A program made the position numbers and the translations under genes. From NCBI GenBank assembly GCA_002869535.1, contig PKUK01000002.1:186001-250000 (forward strand): a stretch of DNA of 64,000 nt. The letters are read 5' to 3'. This DNA is from Arcobacter sp. Lineage in GTDB: Bacteria; Campylobacterota; Campylobacteria; Campylobacterales; Arcobacteraceae. A model generated the notes under the pieces. It did not search any database and had not been told where the DNA came from. It saw only the letters and a list, made by a program, of their open reading frames with translations. Positions 17,283-29,765 of the stretch are shown here, piece by piece. Numbering within the stretch: position 1 is the first letter of the stretch; each line of letters opens with the position of its first letter.

Positions 17283-17360
17283 ATGTTATCAAGCCTATGT
17301 GTAGAGTGTGTGGAAAAGAACTAAGAGAAACAAAATCTTAAAAAAATATTATGCTACAAT
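17283..17360. promoter_or_regulatory. Divergent promoter region between the SHOCT gene and the response regulator
   Basis: GTGTAGAG (17299-17306) and GTGTGGAA (17308-17315) form imperfect repeats, the reverse-strand form of the TCTCCACAC repeats at 19171. On the minus strand they stand about 10 bases before a TAACAT box (17283-17288) serving the SHOCT/DUF411 pair. On the plus strand a TACAAT box (17355-17360) and AAAGGA lead to the response regulator. Confidence 0.45.
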
Positions 17361-17381: not shown

Positions 17382-18041
17382 ATGAAGATACTTTTGATGG
17401 AAGATGATTTGATTTTAAATGAGATTATTGAAGAACACCTTCAAGACAAAGGTCACACAGTTATTTCTACATATGATGCAAACTCAGCCCAAAATCATCT
17501 TTATGAAGATACCTTTGATTTACTTTTACTAGATGTAAATGTTCCAGGATTTACGGGATTTGAGTTACTAAAAGAGTTAAGAGATAATGGTATAAAAATC
17601 CCTGCTATATTTATCACTTCCCTTGATATGATAGATGATGTTGAAAAAGGTTTTGCTTCAGGTTGTGATGATTATATTAAAAAACCTTTTGAACTCAAAG
17701 AGCTTGATTTACGAATAAACAATATAAAAAGACTCTTTAATATTTACCTTTCAACACTAAAAATATCTGAGAACTGCATAATTGATAAAGAAAATCTTAT
17801 GATTATCATAGAAAATAAAAACATACATATTACTCAAAAAGAGTTAGATGTATTGATTTACTTGTATAATAATAAAGAAAAAGTAGTAAGTATAGATGAA
17901 CTTAGTTTAAATCTTTGGAGTTATGAAGATAGTCCAAGTTCAGCAACAATAAGAACATATATAAAAAACTTACGAAAACTATTAGGTGAAAACTATATAT
18001 TAAATATAAGAGGAGTAGGTTATCGATTTAACAACAACTGA
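17382..18041 (+). CDS. OmpR/PhoB-family response regulator (copper-responsive, CusR/CopR-like)
   Basis: This 219-residue protein has a receiver domain (acidic pair EDD at residues 7-9, phosphoacceptor Asp51 in LLLLDVNVPGFTG, Lys in IKKPFELKEL) and a C-terminal winged helix (about 130-219) ending in RTYIKNLRKLLG and IRGVGYRFNNN. Its partner kinase follows. The position between copA and the Cus-type pump, and the shared repeat motifs before the neighbouring promoters, suggest that it senses copper or silver through the kinase and activates the whole locus. The metal is inferred from context. Confidence 0.9.
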   Translation: MKILLMEDDLILNEIIEEHLQDKGHTVISTYDANSAQNHLYEDTFDLLLLDVNVPGFTGFELLKELRDNGIKIPAIFITSLDMIDDVEKGFASGCDDYIKKPFELKELDLRINNIKRLFNIYLSTLKISENCIIDKENLMIIIENKNIHITQKELDVLIYLYNNKEKVVSIDELSLNLWSYEDSPSSATIRTYIKNLRKLLGENYILNIRGVGYRFNNN

Positions 18042-18096: not shown

Positions 18097-19170
18097 ATGA
18101 TTTTAGTAGCCTTTTTATATTTTCAAAATGAAAAAACTCTCTATTTTGATTTAACAAAATCAAATATGCAAAATGTAGTTTCAAAGCTTTCCAATGAGAT
18201 TATCTTTGCACATATGAGAGGAACACACTTTAATCAAGATGAATACTTAGAAAATAGAGATTACAGACTCTCTTTTTATGATGAAAACCAAAAGAAACTT
18301 TTTGGAAATATTGATGAAGAGATAGATTTTGATAAAAAGTTTATAAAAAATGATGATTTTATAATGATTATTGATAACTCTACTGTAGGACATTTGGGTA
18401 TAGATTATATAGTTATAAAAGATAACTCTTTTACTAAAAAAATAGATAATCTTATGGGTAAGATTATAGTTGCTTTTATTAGCTCTTTTTTGTTTATCTC
18501 TTTTGTTGGATTCTATTTGGCAAAACTATTTTTAAAGCCAATTAAAGATGAGAGGGAAAAGTTAAATAATTTCATCAAAGATACTACCCATGAGTTAAAT
18601 ACACCAATTAGTGCAATATTGATGTCAACAGAGAGTGAAAACCTAAACTCAAGACAAATAGAGCGTATAAAACTAAGTGCAAAACGAGTATCTGAAATAT
18701 ATAAAGATTTAACGTATGTATTTTTGAGAAAAGATATAAAAGCAAACGAGTCAGAAGAACTTGATTTGGCTTTTTTAATAAAAGAGCAATTAGCCTACTT
18801 TGAACCTTTAGCAAATAAAAAAAAGATAGAGATTACTTTAAATATTGAACAGTTCTTTTATAAGATTGAAGAGGATGAGTTTATAAGACTATTTAACAAT
18901 ATAGTCTCTAATGCTGTAAAGTATAATAAAATAAATGGGAAAATAGAGATATCTTTAAAAAATAGAGTATTGACAGTAAAAGATACAGGTATAGGAATAG
19001 AGACTCCAAAACTAAAAGATATATTTAACAGATATTATAGAGCTACCACAGAACAGGGTGGTTTTGGTATAGGACTAAATATTGTTTATGAAATTGGTAA
19101 AAAATATAATATTAAAGTAGAAGTTGAATCTATTTATAATGAAGGTACAACAATAACTCTTCGATTTTAA
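18097..19170 (+). CDS. Sensor histidine kinase of the copper locus (start codon unclear)
   Basis: From the first ATG (18097) the protein has 357 residues, but that start cuts off the first half of the N-terminal membrane helix. The frame is open back to 18019 and encodes TFFRFLSLYLGSAFIL just before the ATG, a convincing start of a transmembrane segment. No ATG, GTG or TTG lies in that extension. A periplasmic loop (about 20-110) and a second membrane helix (about 121-142) follow. Then come HisKA (DTTHELNTPISAIL) and the ATPase (NIVSNAVKYNK, DTGIGIETPK, GGFGIGLNIVYEI). It is the cognate kinase of the regulator upstream. The true start may be a rare codon, or the original start may have been lost by mutation. 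Confidence 0.85.
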   Translation: MILVAFLYFQNEKTLYFDLTKSNMQNVVSKLSNEIIFAHMRGTHFNQDEYLENRDYRLSFYDENQKKLFGNIDEEIDFDKKFIKNDDFIMIIDNSTVGHLGIDYIVIKDNSFTKKIDNLMGKIIVAFISSFLFISFVGFYLAKLFLKPIKDEREKLNNFIKDTTHELNTPISAILMSTESENLNSRQIERIKLSAKRVSEIYKDLTYVFLRKDIKANESEELDLAFLIKEQLAYFEPLANKKKIEITLNIEQFFYKIEEDEFIRLFNNIVSNAVKYNKINGKIEISLKNRVLTVKDTGIGIETPKLKDIFNRYYRATTEQGGFGIGLNIVYEIGKKYNIKVEVESIYNEGTTITLRF

Positions 19171-19204
19171 TCTCCACACAATCTCCACACTAAAAAGATA
19201 GAAT
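19171..19204 (+). promoter_or_regulatory. Direct repeats TCTCCACAC x2 and -10 box before the efflux operon
   Basis: TCTCCACAC occurs at 19171-19179 and 19182-19190, an 11-bp period typical of OmpR-family binding on one DNA face. It covers the -35 position of a TAGAAT -10 box (19199-19204). This layout fits activation by the adjacent response regulator. An imperfect hairpin, CCTAAA and TTTAGG (19206-19224), lies near the ribosome site. Confidence 0.55.
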
Positions 19205-19233: not shown

Positions 19234-19617
19234 ATGAAAAACTTATTTAAACTGTTTGCTGGTTTATTAATAGCATTTAATTTAGTACATGCTGATCCTT
19301 TACTTCAAGAAGGAAGTAAAGATGGCTATGATATAAAACTAAGTAGTGAAAAATCATTAGTTGTTGGTAGTAATGAAATAGTAATCGAGTTATTTAAAGA
19401 TGAAGCTATTTTAACAAGTGCAAAAGTTAAAATTAAATTTTATATGCCTGAAATGCCGGGTATGCCATATATGGAAGATGAATCTAAAGCAAAACTTATT
19501 GATGGCAAATATAAAACAAATGTAAACTTTTCAATGGGTGGAACTTGGCAATACCAATTAAAGTTTAAAACAGAAGATGGGAAAGTTCATAAAGTAAGAG
19601 GGAGTGTAAACCTCTAA
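19234..19617 (+). CDS. Secreted YtkA/FixH-like protein with Met-rich motif
   Basis: This 127-residue protein has a signal peptide (MKNLFKLFAGLLIAFNLVHA). The mature domain is a predicted immunoglobulin-like beta sandwich of the YtkA/FixH-like type, with VVGSNEIVIELFKDEA, then FYMPEMPGMPYMED and GTWQYQLKFKTEDGK. The Met-rich MPEMPGMPYM could bind Cu(I) or Ag(I). It is the first gene of the efflux operon, and its stop overlaps the next start by one base. A periplasmic metal-binding or pump-accessory role is inferred. Confidence 0.75.
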   Translation: MKNLFKLFAGLLIAFNLVHADPLLQEGSKDGYDIKLSSEKSLVVGSNEIVIELFKDEAILTSAKVKIKFYMPEMPGMPYMEDESKAKLIDGKYKTNVNFSMGGTWQYQLKFKTEDGKVHKVRGSVNL

Positions 19618-20813
19618 TGCTAAGAAATAGTTTTATTCTGCTTTGTTTGATGATTTCAAGCTCATTTGCCCAAAGTTTGGAAGAGATAATAAATAGTGCC
19701 ATAAATAATAACAGAGATTTACAAGCTATTGAAAAATCTATACAAATAGCAAATGAGCAAATTAAGCTATCAAATAAGTGGGATAATCCTATTTTGACCA
19801 TTGGTGCCAATGACTTGCAGTTCGACACTTCTCGTAGAGATTTGGAGCCAATGCAAGCACAATATCTAGGCTTCTCACAGAATATTCCAATAAATGATAA
19901 ATTTACTCTACAAGAAGAGATAGCACAAAAAGATAAAAACATTGCACAGCTAAATTATGAAGATGCAAAACTAAAATTAAAATCAAAACTTATTCAATAT
20001 GTATATAGTATAAAAATATTAGAAAATAAGTATTCATTGCTAAATGAGTATCAAAAAAATATAAAAAGTTTGGAAGATTTAACTACTTCTTTATACGAAA
20101 ATAGTAAATCAAATCAAAACATGATAATAGACCTAAAAACAGACTATTTAAAAATTGAAGTTCAAAAAGAAAATCTAAAAAATATAATCAATAACAGCTA
20201 TTTAAAACTTGAAGAGATAACTTATGACAAAGTATCAAGTATAGATATTGCTTTGGATATAAAAGAGCTAATTTTTGTAAAAGAGATATCAACTCATCCA
20301 AAAATAAAAATATTAGAACAAAACAGTGAAAAGTTTAATAAACAAGCCCTTTTAGAAGATGCAAAAAAATTATCAGATGTAAAAGTAAATGTAGCATATT
20401 TCCAAAGGGATGATAAGTATAAAGATTACGCAAATATCTCTTTATCTATTCCCTTAGCACTATATGGCAAAGAGAATATAAAGATAGTGCAAGCAAAAAT
20501 GAAAGCAAGTGAGTTTAAAGATAAGCTTGATGATATGAAAAAAAGTTTTGAGTTAAAATTAGCTTCTCTTCAAAATGATATAGATAGTTCATATAAAAAA
20601 TATCAGCTTATAAAAGAGAGGATTATTCCTCTGCAAGTGAATAATCAAGATACTATTGAAAAATACAATAGTTTAGGAATAACACAGCCAAATGAGATAT
20701 TAAAAAATCTAAATAAAATAATCAAAAATAGAGTTGCAGCATATGATGAGATGAAAAATTATTTTGATGCATATGGCAAAAGCTACTACTTCACCCAAGG
20801 AAAAATTAGATGA
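19617..20813 (+). CDS. TolC-family outer membrane efflux protein (CusC-like)
   Basis: This 398-residue protein has a signal peptide (MLRNSFILLCLMISSSFAQS) and a long alpha-helical content with two repeated helical halves, as in TolC-family proteins. ANEQIKLSNKWDNPILTIGA and LGFSQNIPINDKF are typical of the first half. It should form the outer-membrane channel of the tripartite metal pump with the two following genes. It overlaps the adaptor gene by 4 bases. It is a little shorter than E. coli CusC (about 460 residues). Confidence 0.85.
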   Translation: MLRNSFILLCLMISSSFAQSLEEIINSAINNNRDLQAIEKSIQIANEQIKLSNKWDNPILTIGANDLQFDTSRRDLEPMQAQYLGFSQNIPINDKFTLQEEIAQKDKNIAQLNYEDAKLKLKSKLIQYVYSIKILENKYSLLNEYQKNIKSLEDLTTSLYENSKSNQNMIIDLKTDYLKIEVQKENLKNIINNSYLKLEEITYDKVSSIDIALDIKELIFVKEISTHPKIKILEQNSEKFNKQALLEDAKKLSDVKVNVAYFQRDDKYKDYANISLSIPLALYGKENIKIVQAKMKASEFKDKLDDMKKSFELKLASLQNDIDSSYKKYQLIKERIIPLQVNNQDTIEKYNSLGITQPNEILKNLNKIIKNRVAAYDEMKNYFDAYGKSYYFTQGKIR

Positions 20814-21793
20814 GAAATATACAAAAACTATTTTTATTTTTACTATTTGTAGGGGTCTTAAATGCCCAAATTCTTGAGGTAAATCAGCTATTTAATAAAA
20901 AGATTGTAAAAGTTAAAGATGAGACTATTTATGAGACAAAAAGCTTTTACGGAGAGACTTTGTTTGCAGAAGATAGTATCAAAGATATAGTTCTTAGATT
21001 TGATGGGTATGTAAGTTCTTTAGAGGCAAATAAAAACTTAATGGAAGTAAAAAAAGGTGATAAGCTATTCTCTTTATACTCAGACAAAATAGAGAGTATA
21101 AAAAAAGAGATAGAGCTTACAAAGTCTATAAATAAGGCCTTGTATAAAAGCTCACTTGAAAAGCTTGACTCTTTGGATGTAAAATTATCCCAAATAAAAA
21201 ATAAAGATATATCATATTATGCCCCATTTGATGGGATAGTTTTAAATAAAAAGATAAATGATGGCTCATATATAAAAACTGGCACTTTAGTTATGCAACT
21301 TGCAAACATAGATAAGATTTGGTTTATTTCAAAGGTTTATCAAAGTGATTTAGGTTTTTTATCAAATGATATGGATGCCAAAATCAAAATAGATGGTATC
21401 GATATGAACTTTAAAACAAAAGTTGATTATATCTATCCCTTTGCAAACAATCAAAGTAAAACTATAGATGTAAGGTTTGTAATTGATAATAAAAACAAAA
21501 AACTTTTTCCAAATATGTTTGGAAAAGCCCTTATCAAAAGTAGTTCAAAAAAGGTGCTAACCTTACCAAAAACTGCGGTCTTAGCTAAAGGAGATAAATA
21601 TTATGTATTTAAGCCAATTTCAAAACAAGAGTTTGAGCCAGTTTTAGTGGAAGCTAGACGGGTATCTTCTTCAAAATATGAGATTGAAGAGGGATTAAGT
21701 GCTGGTGATGAGGTAATTGACAACGCTTTATTTTTATTGGATTCTGATGCCATTACAAATAGTTTGTATGATTCAGAAGATGAAGACTGGTAA
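20810..21793 (+). CDS. RND efflux periplasmic adaptor (CusB-like membrane fusion protein)
   Basis: This 327-residue protein has an N-terminal signal sequence. It carries the lipoyl/barrel arrangement of HlyD-type adaptors: VLRFDGYVSSLEANKNLMEV, a short helical hairpin, then YYAPFDGIVLNKKINDGSYI (the second lipoyl half) and a beta-barrel with LFPNMFGKALI. It connects the inner-membrane pump to the TolC-like channel. The compact length and the absence of an obvious N-terminal Met cluster differ from E. coli CusB. It lies 4 bases into the end of the TolC-like gene and 6 bases before the pump. Confidence 0.87.
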   Translation: MRNIQKLFLFLLFVGVLNAQILEVNQLFNKKIVKVKDETIYETKSFYGETLFAEDSIKDIVLRFDGYVSSLEANKNLMEVKKGDKLFSLYSDKIESIKKEIELTKSINKALYKSSLEKLDSLDVKLSQIKNKDISYYAPFDGIVLNKKINDGSYIKTGTLVMQLANIDKIWFISKVYQSDLGFLSNDMDAKIKIDGIDMNFKTKVDYIYPFANNQSKTIDVRFVIDNKNKKLFPNMFGKALIKSSSKKVLTLPKTAVLAKGDKYYVFKPISKQEFEPVLVEARRVSSSKYEIEEGLSAGDEVIDNALFLLDSDAITNSLYDSEDEDW

Positions 21794-21799
21794 TAAGTA

Positions 21800-24700
21800 A
21801 TGGTAGAATATATAATAAATAAAAGCGTACAGAATAAGTTTTTAGTTCTGTTTTGCGTAGTTATTTTGACAGTTGCCTCTTTTTGGGCTGTAAAAAACAG
21901 CTCTTTAGATGCACTTCCTGATTTATCACCTCCTCAAGTGATTGTTCAAGTAAAATGGGCAGGACAAAGTCCTAAAACAATAGAAGAGCAAGTCTCTTAC
22001 CCTCTTATTTCAAACTTGATGAGCTTACCAAATATAGATACAGTAAGAGCTATGAGTTCATTTCAAAATGCTTTGATTTATATAATATTTAAAGATGGAA
22101 CAGATCTTTATGACTCTAGAAATAGAATACTAGAACAACTATCCCAACTACAAGGAGCTTTTCCCGAGGGTGTTGATGTAGCAATTGGTCCAGATGCTAC
22201 AGGTGTTGGTTGGGCTTATGAATATGCTTTAAAATCAAAAACAAAATCCCTAGAGGAACTAAGAACTTTACAAGACTATTATTATAAATATGCACTTTTA
22301 GGAGTGGATGGAGTATCAGAAATAGCCTCTATTGGTGGATTTATAAAAAACTATGAGATAACACTAAATCAAGATAAATTAGTTCAATACAACCTTAGTA
22401 TCAATGAAGTAAAAAAAGCCCTTACTTCTAATAATGATGAAAAAGGTGGTCGAATCATCTTAGAAAATGGTTTTGAGCAGATGATTCAAGCAAAAGGTTA
22501 TTTACAAAGTGTGGTTGATATAGAAAACATCACTGTTAAAACCTATGATTCCATACCTTTAAAGATAAAAGATATAGCAGAGGTCAATATAACTTCATCA
22601 AACAGACGTGGAATGGCTGATTTAGATGGTGAGGGTGAAACAGTTGGAGGGATTGTTGTTGTAAGATTTGGTGAAAATCCATATAAGGTTATAAAAGCAG
22701 TTAAAGAGAAGTTAAAAACTCTGCATGTGGATGATGTAGAAGTTGTGGAAACTTATGATAGAAGTTCTTTGATTGATAAAGCTATTGATACACTTAAAAA
22801 CACATTATTGGAAGAATCAATTATTGTTATGGTGGTTACTGCTTTATTTTTATTTCATATTCGAAGTGCTTTAATTATAATCATAACTTTACCCTTAACA
22901 GTTTTATTTACTTTTCTTTGTATGAAACTCTTTGGAATGGGCTCAAATATTATGAGTCTAGGTGGAATTGCAATTGCTATTGGAGCAATGGTTGATGCAA
23001 GTATTGTAATGGTTGAAAATGCCCATAAACACCTACAAGGAAAAGAGAATATAAGCAACGAAGAGAGAATAAAAATCATCATAAAATCAGCAAAACAAGT
23101 GGGCCGTCCCATCTTCTTTGCTTTGATTTTAGTTGTGGTTTCATTTTTACCAATATTTGCCCTAACAGGACAAGAGGGAAGACTTTTTTCTCCTCTAGCT
23201 TTTACTAAGTCATTTGCTATGATTTCAGGTGCCATTTTATCTATTACACTGGTACCTATTTTAATGATATTTTTTATACGTGGAAAAATCATGGATGAGA
23301 AGAAAAATTATATAAATAGATTCTTTATAGCTTTATACTCTCCATTGTTAAAATTATCACTTAGATTTAGATATTTGGTTGTAGTTATATTTTTCGCAAC
23401 TTTAATTTTGGCATATCCAGTTTATAAAAATCAGAATTGGGAATTTATGCCAATGATGAATGAACAAACCTTTATGTACATGCCCGTAACCCCCTATGGT
23501 ATTGGTGTTGATTTAGCAAAAGAGCTTACACAAAAGACTGATAAGATTTTAAAATCATTTCCAGAAGTACAAACTGTATTTGGAAAAGCAGGGAGAGCTG
23601 ATACGGCAACGGATCCAGCACCCTTAGCTATGATTGAGACTATTATTCAATTTAAACCCCAAGACCAATGGCGAGAGGGAATGACTTATAAAAAGCTAAT
23701 GCAAGAGATGGATGAAAAACTAAGAGTTACTGGACTTATAAACTCTTGGACATATCCTATTCGAGGAAGAATTGATATGCTTCTAACAGGGATTAGAACT
23801 CATTTAGGAATAAAGTTGTATGGAAATGACCATCAAAAGTTAGAAGAGATAGCTTTAAAGATAGAGCAAAAGCTTAAAAAGTTTGATAAAACCCTATCTG
23901 TATCATCTGATAAGATGAATTCGGGATACTATTTAAATATAAATTTAGATGAAGAGATGTTATCAAGATATGGAATAACTAAAAATGATATTTTATCAAC
24001 TATCTCTTTAGGAGTTGCAGGAGCTAAAATATCTACTTATCTTGATGCACTAGAGCGATATCCCATAAGTTTACGGTATGAAACAACTCAAAGGGAAGAT
24101 ATAACATCTTTAGAAAATCTTCAAGTAAAAACAAAACTTGGCTTTCAACCTTTAAAAGAGTTCGCAAGTTTAAATTATGAAGAGGGACCATCTGTAATAA
24201 AATCAGAAAAAGCTTTAAATGTAAACTTCACATATATAACTCCTAAAGCTGATGTTTCAGTAAAAGAGTATAAAGATAAAGCCCAAGAGCTTTTAAAAGA
24301 GATAAAACTGCCTTCAGGTTTTTATTATGAGTGGGCAGGGCAAAGTGAGTATTTAGAGTCTGCCATGAAAAAGTTAGCATATATTATACCTTTGACTTTT
24401 GTGATTATATTTATACTTATCTTTTTTGCTCTTAGAAATCTTACATATACGATGATTATATTTTTTACTCTGCCTTTTGCAATTACTGGGGGAATATTTT
24501 ATTTAGATTATCTAAACTTCAATATCTCAATTGCAGTAATCGTTGGATTTCTAGCTCTCCTTGGTGTTGCAGCAGAAACTTCAATCGTAATGCTTGTATA
24601 TTTGCATGAAGCTATGGTAGAATTAAAAGATAAATGTATATCACTAGATGATGATAAGCATGTTTTTCATGCCATTTATAAAGGAGCAGTTTTAAGACTT

Positions 24701-24919
24701 AGACCAAAGCTTATGACACTCTTTGCTATTTTGGGTGGATTGATACCTATTATGTATATTGATGGGGTAGGAAGTGAAGTGATGCAAAGAATTGCAGCAC
24801 CTATGATTGGAGGAATGATAAGTTCAGCCTTTTTAACGCTGATTATTATCCCTTCTATATTTTATATTTTAGCTTTAAAAAGAAGAGATAAAATCTTAGA
24901 ACAGCAGTTATCTCATTAA
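21800..24919 (+). CDS. cusA: CusA-type heavy-metal RND efflux transporter
   Basis: This 1039-residue transporter has twelve membrane helices in two halves and two large periplasmic loops. The N-terminus has the RND motif LPDLSPPQVIVQVKWAGQSP. TM4 contains IAIAIGAMVDASIVMVENA, the pattern of monovalent-cation (Cu/Ag) HME-RND pumps rather than the zinc/cobalt type. The pump exports Cu(I) or Ag(I) from periplasm or membrane to outside through the CusBC-like partners. The length matches CusA (1047). It is the fourth gene of the operon, so regulation by the upstream two-component system is likely. Confidence 0.92.
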   Translation: MVEYIINKSVQNKFLVLFCVVILTVASFWAVKNSSLDALPDLSPPQVIVQVKWAGQSPKTIEEQVSYPLISNLMSLPNIDTVRAMSSFQNALIYIIFKDGTDLYDSRNRILEQLSQLQGAFPEGVDVAIGPDATGVGWAYEYALKSKTKSLEELRTLQDYYYKYALLGVDGVSEIASIGGFIKNYEITLNQDKLVQYNLSINEVKKALTSNNDEKGGRIILENGFEQMIQAKGYLQSVVDIENITVKTYDSIPLKIKDIAEVNITSSNRRGMADLDGEGETVGGIVVVRFGENPYKVIKAVKEKLKTLHVDDVEVVETYDRSSLIDKAIDTLKNTLLEESIIVMVVTALFLFHIRSALIIIITLPLTVLFTFLCMKLFGMGSNIMSLGGIAIAIGAMVDASIVMVENAHKHLQGKENISNEERIKIIIKSAKQVGRPIFFALILVVVSFLPIFALTGQEGRLFSPLAFTKSFAMISGAILSITLVPILMIFFIRGKIMDEKKNYINRFFIALYSPLLKLSLRFRYLVVVIFFATLILAYPVYKNQNWEFMPMMNEQTFMYMPVTPYGIGVDLAKELTQKTDKILKSFPEVQTVFGKAGRADTATDPAPLAMIETIIQFKPQDQWREGMTYKKLMQEMDEKLRVTGLINSWTYPIRGRIDMLLTGIRTHLGIKLYGNDHQKLEEIALKIEQKLKKFDKTLSVSSDKMNSGYYLNINLDEEMLSRYGITKNDILSTISLGVAGAKISTYLDALERYPISLRYETTQREDITSLENLQVKTKLGFQPLKEFASLNYEEGPSVIKSEKALNVNFTYITPKADVSVKEYKDKAQELLKEIKLPSGFYYEWAGQSEYLESAMKKLAYIIPLTFVIIFILIFFALRNLTYTMIIFFTLPFAITGGIFYLDYLNFNISIAVIVGFLALLGVAAETSIVMLVYLHEAMVELKDKCISLDDDKHVFHAIYKGAVLRLRPKLMTLFAILGGLIPIMYIDGVGSEVMQRIAAPMIGGMISSAFLTLIIIPSIFYILALKRRDKILEQQLSH

Positions 24920-24928
24920 AAAGATAAC

Positions 24929-24960
24929 TACACGAAAAGTACACAAAGATTTTATAGAAT
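24929..24960 (+). promoter_or_regulatory. TACAC direct repeats and TAGAAT -10 box before the Cys-rich gene
   Basis: TACAC at 24929-24933 and again at 24940-24944 has the same 11-bp period as the repeats at 19171, and the same TAGAAT box follows (24955-24960). The small Cys-rich gene therefore probably has its own promoter under the same regulator. Confidence 0.5.
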
Positions 24961-24999: not shown

Positions 25000-25296
25000 A
25001 TGAAAAAATTTATGTTATTAGTAGCTGCGTTACTATTTACTGCTGGTGTTGCTATGGCTGATGGTAAATCAGGTTCATGTGGAGCTGGAAAATGTGGAGA
25101 CTCTAAAAAAGAGATGAAAAAATCTGCTTCTTGTGGTAGTGGAAAATGTGGTGGTGAAATGAAAAAAGGTATGAAAAAAGATGGATCATGTGGAACTGGA
25201 AAATGTGGTGATTCAATGAAAGAGAAAAAAGAGATGAAAAAATCAGGTTCATGTGGAACTGGAAAATGTGGTGATTCTAAAAAAGATATGAAATAA
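25000..25296 (+). CDS. Secreted small protein with four SCGxGKCG repeats (metal-binding or modified-peptide precursor)
   Basis: This 98-residue protein has a signal peptide (residues 1-20, ending AGVAMA). The mature part is low complexity: four SCGxGKCG motifs (Cys pairs 27/32, 45/50, 64/69 and 85/90) separated by Lys/Met/Asp/Glu linkers such as DSKKEMKKSA. All eight cysteines are in the motifs. Similar GKCG-rich secreted peptides occur as substrates of MNIO (DUF692) enzymes that turn Cys into copper-binding heterocycles, but no such enzyme is encoded in this window. It may instead bind Cu(I) through free thiols. Its own promoter carries the locus repeats, and an AAAAAGGA ribosome site precedes it. 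Expression and secretion look sound; the chemistry is unknown. Confidence 0.82.
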   Translation: MKKFMLLVAALLFTAGVAMADGKSGSCGAGKCGDSKKEMKKSASCGSGKCGGEMKKGMKKDGSCGTGKCGDSMKEKKEMKKSGSCGTGKCGDSKKDMK

Positions 25297-25316
25297 TTTT
25301 TGTTTTCATATAGTTA

Positions 25317-25336
25317 GGGTGTAGACTTCTACACTC
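25317..25336. terminator. Short hairpin between convergent genes
   Basis: GTGTAG (25319-25324) pairs with CTACAC (25329-25334) around a four-base loop, in the gap after the Cys-rich gene and overlapping the stop of the MATE gene. A T-rich stretch precedes it. It is a plausible shared terminator, of modest strength. Confidence 0.45.
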
Positions 25337-26684
25337 TAATATTACATAAAACTTTCAACTTATACATTGTATAAAAATAAGCAAATATTGCAGCAGAATA
25401 AATCATAAAAAACATACCAACAAACAAATAGATGTAATCTAGTTCAAAATATTTAACAATAATATATGAAACCAATGTTTTAGCAATAATTTGTCTATAT
25501 ATTCCTATATAAAATATCATCTTAGGTTGTTTGATAGCTTGAAGTGTTGATACACAAACAAATAAAACAACATAAGCATAAAATATCCAAACTTCAACAA
25601 GTAAATAATCAAAGCCATATTGAACAACACCTATGTCATCATCAAATTGTGCAACTATGAGTTTCCCAAAAATATATAAGAAAATAATCCCAAAAGTTGA
25701 TATTATAAAGCCATATTTAAAAGCTAATAAAACAATCTCTTTTACTCTATTAAATTGTTTTGCACCATAATTATTTGAGACTAATGAAAGAACAGCAGTA
25801 CTTAGTCCAAGAGCTGGCAATAACATAAGTTGTTCTACTCTAAATCCAATTCCATATCCCGCTACTGCTTTATATCCATAATGTGTAACAAAATATGTAA
25901 GAATTATAGAACCAAAGGCCATTGTTAGCATATTGAGACTTGATGGGGTTCCTTGCTTGATAAAAGCCTTATAAACTCTAAAGTTGGGTAAATAGTACTC
26001 TAGCTTTTCAAAGTGTATAATCTTTGTTTGTAGGACTTTATAGAGCATATAAAACATATTTATAATTTGTATTAAAACAGTTGCAAAGGCAATACCTGCA
26101 ATTCCCATACCTGGAATAACCCAAAAACCATAGATAAACAAGGGATTTAATGCCAAGTTTGCAAAAAAACCAAAAATCAAAGAGTTTCTATATGTTTTTG
26201 TATCTCCCCTTGAAACTAGTATGGCATTTAATGAAAAGTTTGTCATAAAAAATACTGCACCTAAAAGTATAATATTCATATACTCTAAACATATTTCAAG
26301 GTATTTACCTTCAGCACCTAGGATTTTAAATAGCAATGGAGCAGTAAAGTATCCCATAATAGAAAAAAGAACTCCAAGAATAATTAAAAAGCTAATACCT
26401 TTGTGGGCATATATGGAGGCAAGATGATTTTTTTTTCTTCCAAAAGAGTTTCCAATAAGTGCTGTAATTGCAGATGAAAAACCATATCCAAAACCAATAA
26501 TTAAGAAAAATATCATAAAAGATAGGGATAAAGCAGCAATGGCTTGTGTTGAAATAAGTCCAGCATAAAATGTATCTACTACATTATACATGGTATTAAA
26601 AAACATACCAGTACTTGCTGGTATGGCTAACTCTTTTAAGAGTTTTGGAATTGGGGCTTCAAGCAAGTATTGCGTTTTATTCAA
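25329..26684 (-). CDS. MATE-family multidrug/Na+ antiporter
   Basis: This 451-residue protein has about twelve membrane helices in two related halves, the MATE fold. The N-terminus LLEAPIPKLLKELAIPASTG and FYAGLISTQAIAALSLSFM match the NorM/DinF group. The second half contains FIKQGTPSSLNMLTMAFGS. It exports cationic compounds in exchange for Na+ or H+; the substrate is unknown. It is convergent with the metal operon and upstream of nothing obviously related. Confidence 0.9.
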   Translation of the reverse strand: MNKTQYLLEAPIPKLLKELAIPASTGMFFNTMYNVVDTFYAGLISTQAIAALSLSFMIFFLIIGFGYGFSSAITALIGNSFGRKKNHLASIYAHKGISFLIILGVLFSIMGYFTAPLLFKILGAEGKYLEICLEYMNIILLGAVFFMTNFSLNAILVSRGDTKTYRNSLIFGFFANLALNPLFIYGFWVIPGMGIAGIAFATVLIQIINMFYMLYKVLQTKIIHFEKLEYYLPNFRVYKAFIKQGTPSSLNMLTMAFGSIILTYFVTHYGYKAVAGYGIGFRVEQLMLLPALGLSTAVLSLVSNNYGAKQFNRVKEIVLLAFKYGFIISTFGIIFLYIFGKLIVAQFDDDIGVVQYGFDYLLVEVWIFYAYVVLFVCVSTLQAIKQPKMIFYIGIYRQIIAKTLVSYIIVKYFELDYIYLFVGMFFMIYSAAIFAYFYTMYKLKVLCNIRV

Positions 26685-27994: not shown

Positions 27995-28426
27995 TTATAT
28001 TTCAATAGCAGTTGTATTATAAATTTTATGAGATAATGTAATGTGTTTAATTCTTTTGTTTAATAATCTTTTTTTTACCATACTATCACTAAATTTTTTA
28101 CATATAAATATGCATTTGTGTATATTTATACCTTGGTTTTCTAAAATTCTGTAAACATTAGATATTTGTTCAATAATCTCTTTTAATATATGATTTGTAA
28201 CTGTACCACATTTTATTTCAAGAAGTGTAATCTTATCATTCTTATGGATAATTAGACAGTCACAAAGCGTTGGTTCTATTGAACCAAATATTGATTTTTT
28301 CATTTTTAAGTCTTTTATTCCTAAATCTGGCTTGTATATTTGTTTAATATCTTTTTTACTTAGTTTACACGTATTATCTTTACATTCTGATGATGTATTA
28401 AATATTAAATTTAAAGTATTAATCAT
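27995..28426 (-). CDS. PD-(D/E)XK-like putative nuclease, partner of the ATPase
   Basis: This 143-residue protein is not a recognised family. Its middle reads EPTLCDCLIIHKNDKITLLE then IKCG. A strand with Asp56, a short turn, and Glu70-x-Lys72 is the core of PD-(D/E)XK nucleases, followed by a helix (HILKEIIEQISNVYRIL) as expected. The N-terminus has several cysteines (Cys15, Cys20) before the core. It overlaps the end of the upstream ATPase gene by 8 bases, so the two form one operon. An effector nuclease of a two-gene defence system is a reasonable guess. It could also be a DNA- or RNA-binding protein with a dead fold. Confidence 0.6.
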   Translation of the reverse strand: MINTLNLIFNTSSECKDNTCKLSKKDIKQIYKPDLGIKDLKMKKSIFGSIEPTLCDCLIIHKNDKITLLEIKCGTVTNHILKEIIEQISNVYRILENQGINIHKCIFICKKFSDSMVKKRLLNKRIKHITLSHKIYNTTAIEI

Positions 28427-29765
28427 TTTTATTTAATATTCTTTCATTTAATTCATCACTTCTATCTAAAAGTTCATCTAGAACTTCATCAAAATTATCA
28501 TTTGAAATACCAAATTTGTCTATTTCAAGTTTATTGACAGTTGTCTTTGTTTTTTCATTTTTAAATAAATAGGCTGAAACATCATCTTTTGATATTGCAA
28601 ATTCATTATCTTTTTCAATATTGTCTAACTTGATACAGTTATTAATTTCATTTAAAATATAATCACTATGTGTAGTTACTAAAACTTTTGCTCCTGAATT
28701 AGAAAGTAAGACAATAAATTTGGCCATTTGTATTTGTGCTTTTGGATGGAGGTGAGCTTCTGGTTCTTCTATAACAAAAAAAGTTTTAGAAATATCTTCT
28801 GTATTTTTTAAAAAAACAATAAAAGGTAAAGTTTCCAATGTTGCTGAAGAGGCTAAATGCAAATCTAACCTTGTATTATTTTTTGTTTTTAAGTAGAAGT
28901 TTTTATAATTATCATCCAATTTTTCTTCTTCAATTGAACCCTTTATTATATTTCTTTGTAAAAAGTCAATAAGAAGTGTTTGAAGTTTTTTATTATCTGG
29001 ATTGTCATGTTTAAAAATAGACAACCATTTAATATCTAATTTATTTGATCTAATATCAGAATAGTTTGTAATGAAATCTATCGTTGGTTTTGTAAGTCTT
29101 GCAGAGCTTGATTGTCCTTTATATTTGTCTCTTAATAATCCAGAGACAATTTCATCAAATGCTAAGATGAAACCTGTTCTTGAGGCTGGAAAATACTTTA
29201 TACCTGAATAGCTAGAAAGATTATTTTTAAAGTATAAGAATATTTTATCAAGTATGTTACTTAAAAGCATGTATATGATTAAATCGTCATCAACATCTTT
29301 TGTATCATTAAATATTTCAATTTCATATTGATTTTCTTGAAATAAATCAGCTAGATTTAAATTATTTTCATAAAATATTTTTTCTAAAACATTTGAATTA
29401 TTATTAAAACTTTTATTGATTAATTTTGTAAATAATGTATTTATTAAAAAATACATATGATTGATAAGATTATTAAAATCAGTTCTTTTATTTTCAAATG
29501 AAAAAATTACATGAGTAAATTTTCTATTTGTTTCTTTGATGTCTCTTCTTTCTATAATTGTTTCAATAAGAAACTTTGATTTTGGAAATAAAAGAAATAG
29601 AATTTCTTTTTCTTCAGGTTTCTCTTTTATTAAAGTTAAAAATTCATAAATAATGTGAGCCATATAACTCTTATGAGTAGAATTTTGTCCTACAAAAAGA
29701 GTTAAGTTTTTAACTTCAACTTCTGCTTCTTTTATATTTGCAAGATTTTCTACTCTAAGCTTCAT
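28419..29765 (-). CDS. OLD/AAA_15-like ABC-type ATPase, probable defence-system sensor
   Basis: This 448-residue protein opens KLRVENLANIKEAEVEVKNL, the strand of SMC/OLD-like ATPases. The P-loop is VGQNSTHKS (residues 25-33), where the usual Gly before Lys is His31, an odd but patterned change. The Walker B and signature region (about residue 330) read FFVIEEPEAHLHPKAQIQMA, then VLVTTHSDYILNEI (switch His). The middle (about 60-290) is unlike known domains. The C-terminal DNFDEVLDELLDRSDELNE resembles tails of antiphage ATPases. It heads a two-gene unit with the PD-(D/E)XK-like gene. Both are very AT-rich and sit between genes that are adjacent in relatives. A role in phage or plasmid defence is inferred. 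Confidence 0.75.
   Translation of the reverse strand: MKLRVENLANIKEAEVEVKNLTLFVGQNSTHKSYMAHIIYEFLTLIKEKPEEKEILFLLFPKSKFLIETIIERRDIKETNRKFTHVIFSFENKRTDFNNLINHMYFLINTLFTKLINKSFNNNSNVLEKIFYENNLNLADLFQENQYEIEIFNDTKDVDDDLIIYMLLSNILDKIFLYFKNNLSSYSGIKYFPASRTGFILAFDEIVSGLLRDKYKGQSSSARLTKPTIDFITNYSDIRSNKLDIKWLSIFKHDNPDNKKLQTLLIDFLQRNIIKGSIEEEKLDDNYKNFYLKTKNNTRLDLHLASSATLETLPFIVFLKNTEDISKTFFVIEEPEAHLHPKAQIQMAKFIVLLSNSGAKVLVTTHSDYILNEINNCIKLDNIEKDNEFAISKDDVSAYLFKNEKTKTTVNKLEIDKFGISNDNFDEVLDELLDRSDELNERILNKND

Follow-up and report, generated by a model that had tools for sequence, protein, structure and literature searches.

The closest described relatives of the protein considered here are the HvfA, oxazolin or Buf_EGKCG precursors (captophorins). 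Members of this family bind copper after the conversion of Lys-Cys to a 5-thiooxazole, and Lys-Cys is also where the modification of the captophorin fontiphorin was mapped (PMC13097082). Besides an HvfB-type MNIO and an HvfC/PME1 (DUF2063-type) partner, an MNIO-modified RiPP (oxazolin/captophorin) system is defined by a 5-thiooxazole at Lys-Cys, with a change of -4 Da per site. Precursors without an MNIO were found in 67 of 2,583 Buf_EGKCG genomes and were regarded as rare exceptions, either dead or working unmodified, with no means to decide (PMC12452194). Neither Arcobacter nor Campylobacter is named anywhere in that study. A stretch of 64,000 nucleotides from Arcobacter sp. (hereafter the window) encodes a protein with GKCG-type repeats, designated here the KCG protein. 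With a probability of roughly two in three, it is an orphan HvfA/Buf_EGKCG precursor at a cus-hvfABC locus that is used unmodified as a thiol-based periplasmic buffer for Cu(I)/Ag(I).

The bounds of the KCG gene were confirmed as exact from the sequence and the list of open reading frames, with an ATG start and 98 residues (Table 1). By inspection, the N-terminus is hydrophobic, resembles a signal peptide and ends in AMA, in agreement with a preliminary description of this DNA that had placed the repeats behind a signal peptide. That description had also counted four identical SCGxGKCG units holding all eight cysteines. The four units and the position of all eight cysteines within them were confirmed, with Lys/Met-rich linkers between the units, but the units vary at x (SCG[A/S/T]GKCG). 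The motif CGxGKCG occurred four times, compared with a maximum of one (mean 0.002) in 100,000 shuffles of the mature sequence, and no further copy was present in the six reading frames of the window outside the KCG protein. At the DNA level, the repeat comprises four copies of approximately 63 nt each, with 63-86% identity. The protein matched the NCBIfam model NF050137 (“HvfA family oxazolone/thioamide-modified RiPP metallophore”) in four stretches at 33 bits (curated cut-off, 19.5), which bears out its earlier assignment to the GKCG-type repeat precursors. Orthologues at the same locus of two congeners, G032 and G033, were 75% and 67% identical, and the KCG proteins of the congeners scored 21.2 and 20.0 bits against this model. 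The full-length HvfA equivalog NF050188 was not reached (19.2 bits; cut-off, 95). A Pfam search with the KCG protein returned no significant family, a sequence search of the PDB only chance-level matches, and tblastn against plasmids no match.

Table 1. Features of the KCG locus (positions are those of the window)
Feature	Position	Strand	Basis
Weaker copy of the box before the divergent SHOCT/DUF411 genes	17297..17312	-	Box search
OmpR-type response regulator (candidate CusR)	17382..18041	+	Pfam Response_reg + Trans_reg_C
Sensor histidine kinase (candidate CusS)	18097..19170	+	Pfam HisKA + HATPase_c
Putative cus-operon operator CACAC-N6-CACAC, followed by TAGAAT at 19199-19204	19175..19190	+	Repeat search
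YtkA-like periplasmic protein of the cus operon	19234..19617	+	Pfam YtkA
CusC-type outer-membrane factor	19617..20813	+	Position, synteny
CusB-type adaptor	20810..21793	+	Position, synteny
CusA/CzcA-family RND pump	21800..24919	+	TIGR00914, 1018.6 bits (cut-off 701)
Putative KCG operator, direct repeat TACAC-N6-TACAC, 11-bp period	24929..24944	+	Repeat search
TAGAAT, putative -10 box of the KCG gene	24955..24960	+	Sequence, pattern search
KCG-repeat protein (HvfA/Buf_EGKCG-type precursor), 98 aa, 8 Cys	25000..25296	+	ORF; NF050137 match; orthologues
Putative signal peptide MKKFMLLVAALLFTAGVAMA, predicted cleavage after AMA	25000..25059	+	Sequence
Unit 1, SCGAGKCG	25075..25098	+	Sequence, motif count
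Unit 2, SCGSGKCG	25129..25152	+	Sequence, motif count
Unit 3, SCGTGKCG	25186..25209	+	Sequence, motif count
Unit 4, SCGTGKCG	25249..25272	+	Sequence, motif count
32-bp gap, place of hvfB (MNIO) and hvfC in relatives	25297..25328	.	Synteny tables
MATE-type transporter gene, convergent; closes the syntenic block, then hom	25329..26684	-	Synteny

The KCG gene follows the cus genes, and genes for DUF411 and SHOCT proteins and for a CopA-type ATPase with an HMA domain lie further upstream of the two-component and cus genes. The syntenic block from cus to MATE-hom-aspAT-trmH was taken from about 80 genomes of the Arcobacteraceae. Most Poseidonibacter-, Halarcobacter- and related genomes carried hvfA-hvfB-hvfC ahead of MATE-hom, and in many of them these genes came immediately after cusCBA-(YceI). 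The earlier observation that no MNIO gene is nearby was correct; in the window, the convergent MATE gene ends 32 bp beyond the KCG gene, at the place where these relatives have hvfB-hvfC. This orphan state, in which KCG is followed directly by MATE, was found in the window and 16 other genomes, namely all three from the window's genus (three species), 13 from a second, Aliarcobacter-type genus, and G080. On a tree of five flanking genes, it corresponded to four changes and three well separated groups. G085 carried an orphan KCG gene at another locus, and G034 had, besides a separate hvfABC-doxX locus, an orphan at the cus locus whose signal peptide is similar. Two histories remain for the window's genus, namely that hvfBC were lost locally, or that the KCG gene at the cus locus is old and was always without them, the latter being suggested by the two loci of G034. 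A consistent position of close homologues outside metal loci had been named beforehand as evidence against a metal-related role; in this family, the KCG gene sits at the cus locus.

Other differences were observed within the block. A YceI-family gene (L065:8218-8796 and equivalents) lies between cusA and KCG/hvfA in most relatives and is absent from the window's genus. An insertion of two genes, for a protein of 143 aa and an ATPase-like protein of 448 aa, lies between hom and aspAT at positions 27995-29765 of the window, in an otherwise conserved block, and genes of similar size occupy the same place in G040 and G041. Some KCG copies have grown more cysteine-rich and metallothionein-like (L153:5170-5685 in G058, L068:8509-8826 in G020, and L076:8714-9022 in G004), one of them with a lipobox.

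The direct repeat YACAC-N6-YACAC occurred exactly twice in the 64 kb (0.15 expected), before the cus operon and before the KCG gene. With a TAGAAT-like box required 7-12 bp beyond the repeat, the 2.68-Mb genome contained two matches, again before the cus operon and the KCG gene; a reversed control pattern also gave two matches, so the weight of the operator argument lies in the positions and the count by itself is not significant. The same type of box was located upstream of the KCG gene in both congeners, as well as before hvfA in eight MNIO+ relatives in which hvfA heads its own unit (G042, G072, G074, G092, G093, G096, G097, and G099). The preliminary description had proposed that the gene has its own promoter, with the repeat motif and TAGAAT box of the efflux operon, and that it is controlled with the Cus-type pump. 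The former agrees with the presence of both elements at these two places and nowhere else in the genome, and the latter is suggested by the promoter architecture that the KCG gene and the cus operon have in common. The neighbouring OmpR-type regulator (17382) probably binds the box. A sigma-70 scan was dropped as promoter evidence, since it yielded no more promoters than were found in shuffles.

The preliminary description had left a choice between a modifying enzyme encoded elsewhere and a thiol-based metal sponge, and had proposed a genome search for DUF692 and partner genes. The assembly that contains the window is a 12-contig draft with a completeness of 99.96%. A genome-wide search with PF05114 (DUF692) found no HvfB-type MNIO. 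The sole PF05114 match was partial (50 bits) and lay on another contig (C8:266692; L001:1369-2157), between an SDR gene and the aminotransferase of an aminosugar cluster. It reached 42-51 bits, compared with the 310-400 bits required by the NCBIfam MNIO models, and when aligned with true Arcobacteraceae MNIOs it was without the GCGLGLR, PENW, SEHLSFS, ELLP, and ERDNN blocks. Its aminosugar context, the partial match, and the absence of conserved residues rule it out as the missing enzyme. The gene encodes a diverged MNIO-like TIM-barrel protein. For the partner, PF09836 had no match in the genome, a weak test because even a genuine Arcobacteraceae HvfC falls below its cut-off; an Arcobacteraceae-specific HvfC profile was therefore used instead, by which HvfC was absent from the genome, whereas two positive-control genomes were matched at 1e-55 and 1e-113. 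Congener G032, a single closed contig of 3,192,235 bp, contained neither an MNIO nor HvfC. The KCG protein is thus a member of a known precursor family that stands outside the known system, as the defining enzyme and its partner were both searched for and not found. Because neither is present in the genome or the closed congener, the possible modified copper-binding peptide of the earlier title is not supported; an enzyme encoded elsewhere is now unlikely, and the thiol-based alternative is favored.

Since the lineage lacks the modifying enzymes and yet preserves every cysteine, the unmodified protein probably binds copper itself. In the mechanism that we propose from these comparisons, periplasmic copper (or silver) would activate the neighbouring two-component system, which would switch on cusCBA and the KCG gene through the same box, the latter having its own copper-responsive promoter and being expressed alongside the cus operon. 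The KCG protein would then be exported by Sec and stay unmodified, and the paired thiols of its four CX4C (CGxGKC) units would bind excess Cu(I) or Ag(I), thereby buffering the periplasmic ions for efflux by the CusCBA pump. As the known modification maps to Lys-Cys, even relatives with an MNIO may leave the first cysteine of SCGxGKCG as a thiol, and a thiol-based role is thus plausible from the outset. Function in the unmodified state is nevertheless an assumption, because family relatives bind copper after their Lys-Cys has become 5-thiooxazole, and an unrelated enzyme could modify the KCG protein.

The distribution of KCG proteins bears on this last point. Among 299 genomes drawn evenly from the order, 41 contained KCG proteins, 28 of them without a true MNIO; these counts are approximate, as the profile misses some short KCG proteins (synteny alone revealed those of G032 and G033). 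Orphans are therefore the majority of KCG genomes in this sample, compared with the small fraction in the literature. Their settings in the order include positions beside CopA (L239, L243), lipoproteins, and fusions to a YtkA domain. In the fusions, a CGAGKCG segment is joined to the N-terminus of a YtkA-like domain (L251:1447-1893, L255:1435-1734) that corresponds to the YtkA-like protein of the window's cus operon (19234-19617).

Modification by a non-MNIO enzyme, with an FAD-dependent GMC oxidoreductase and a gluconate-2-dehydrogenase-subunit-3-like partner as candidates, would account for a further feature of the orphans. One or both of these genes, often with DoxX, were located within six genes of KCG in 13/24 fetched orphan genomes and in 0/6 MNIO+ genomes. 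Genome-wide, the subunit-3 family (PF13618) was present in 25/28 orphan genomes, compared with 2/13 genomes with KCG and MNIO and 40/258 without KCG. A KCG gene next to genes for DoxX, a PF13618 protein, and a GMC oxidoreductase was observed at L070, L256, L262-L264, L268-L274, L281, and L305-L308, and this set was never seen beside an MNIO. Moreover, the gene order is KCG-MNIO-HvfC-DoxX in G084 and KCG-DoxX-G2DH3-GMC in its sister species G085, which looks like a replacement. On the other hand, the pair in the window's genome is unlinked to the KCG gene, on contig C5, and in this assembly an in-frame TAA breaks the GMC gene (L290:8652-10316), although the preceding PF13618 gene is intact and congener G032 has an uninterrupted GMC protein of 553 aa. 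Five orphan Arcobacteraceae have no subunit-3 gene at all, six MNIO+ species of the family also have one, and the GMC protein is not known to modify peptides. A literature search found no report linking GMC, the gluconate dehydrogenase subunit, DoxX, and MNIO, and Antoine et al. (PMC12452194) mention neither GMC nor gluconate. The pair was downgraded as the enzyme for the window's protein on account of its unlinked position, the broken GMC gene, and the five orphans without a subunit-3 gene, and such a modification is quite unlikely. A broader reading, which we regard as doubtful, is that the Campylobacterota KCG family has two exchangeable systems, MNIO-HvfC and an undescribed, iron-enzyme-free set of DoxX, a G2DH3-like protein and an FAD-dependent GMC oxidoreductase that would mature or service the KCG proteins, with the window's protein as a third, enzyme-free state acting unmodified.

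The absence of hvfBC from the locus and the genome would also be expected if the KCG gene were a functionless but still transcribed relic of a lost hvfABC system. Some orphan lineages have lost motif residues, including the first cysteine of unit 1 in G030 and units reduced to SCNTGKCG in G002 and G006. In the window's genus, however, the enzyme-less copies retain every motif cysteine and the operator. The motif codons of the three congeneric orphans contained 22 synonymous and 2 nonsynonymous differences (pN/pS 0.03), compared with pN/pS values of 0.53 in the linkers and 0.34 in the signal peptide. Motifs and linkers had diverged at synonymous sites to about the same extent; the low value in the motifs is therefore not accounted for by recent homogenisation, and it indicates that selection maintains the thiol motifs although the known enzyme is missing. 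Together with the occurrence of KCG in every sampled genome of the genus and in 13 species of the second genus, this makes a relic just as unlikely as modification by the GMC pair.

A role for the KCG protein in the handling of another metal or in redox, such as zinc, mercury, or thiol redox buffering, comes behind these two and is quite improbable. CusA/CzcA-family pumps carry several metals, and pairs of thiols also bind zinc and mercury. However, the locus holds a copper set (the CopA-type ATPase with its HMA domain, DUF411, and YtkA), and copper is the metal bound by the precedents of the family (PMC12452194, PMC13097082).

The signal peptides differed between MNIO-linked and orphan proteins. 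A strict leader motif, LAGxxLGA[AV], defined after the sequences had been looked at, was present in 32/35 MNIO-linked proteins and 0/21 orphans of the family. A looser form occurred in 39/41 MNIO-linked and 7/50 orphan proteins of the family and order, all seven of these orphans being from a genus that has two MNIO+ members. In G034 and G058, which have two KCG genes each, the MNIO-linked copy carried an LAG-type motif (in G034 in the looser form only) that was absent from the orphan copy. Of the five phylogenetically independent contrasts, four agreed and none opposed (p = 0.125), a number of contrasts with which significance is out of reach. Non-Ala residues at x of CGxGKCG were commoner in orphans. 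The pattern fits the preliminary evidence of Antoine et al. (PMC12452194) that the recognition sequence of the Buf1 bufferin system includes the signal peptide, and it predicts that the LAGxxLGAA motif of the signal peptide is the handle of the enzyme. Modification by an MNIO acting in trans or missed in the 12-contig draft, for which the coexistence of a cus-locus orphan with an MNIO-linked KCG gene in G034 provides a precedent, is very improbable given the completeness of the assembly, the closed congener without MNIO and HvfC, and the lack in the orphan of the leader motif common to MNIO-linked precursors, a region with a preliminary role in bufferin recognition.

Use of the KCG protein as an unmodified thiol buffer thus remains the favored reading. 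Close relatives that carry this gene in one and the same chromosomal setting, some with the enzymes and some without, form matched natural pairs; together with the retained cysteines and operator, these make it directly testable whether modification matters. MNIO-less KCG copies also point to an unexplored flavoenzyme pair, and if the three-state reading is true, KCG precursors can act without any modification.

Compared with known systems, the KCG protein shares thiol-based metal storage, its proposed mechanism, with bacterial metallothioneins and Csp copper-storage proteins; it differs from them in its CX4C units and putative secretion, and no sequence relation was found in the Pfam and PDB searches. 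The concept of periplasmic, cysteine-based copper buffering is common to the bufferins Buf1 (DUF2282) and Buf2, which have another cysteine pattern and are likewise MNIO-dependent; the KCG protein had no DUF2282 match. Unlike the HvfA/oxazolin/Buf_EGKCG precursors (captophorins; NF050137, NF050188), the KCG protein contains SCGxGKCG rather than EGKCG, is without the LAGxxLGAA leader, and is encoded in a genome without HvfB (MNIO) or HvfC, whereas the putative signal peptide, the repeated GKCG in a Gly/Lys context, and the link to copper are alike. At the cus-hvfABC loci of other Arcobacteraceae, among them Poseidonibacter and Halarcobacter, hvfB and hvfC come after the precursor gene, in contrast to the 32 bp and MATE gene of the window; these loci likewise lie between cusCBA, often accompanied by YceI, and MATE-hom, and several of them have the same operator box before hvfA.
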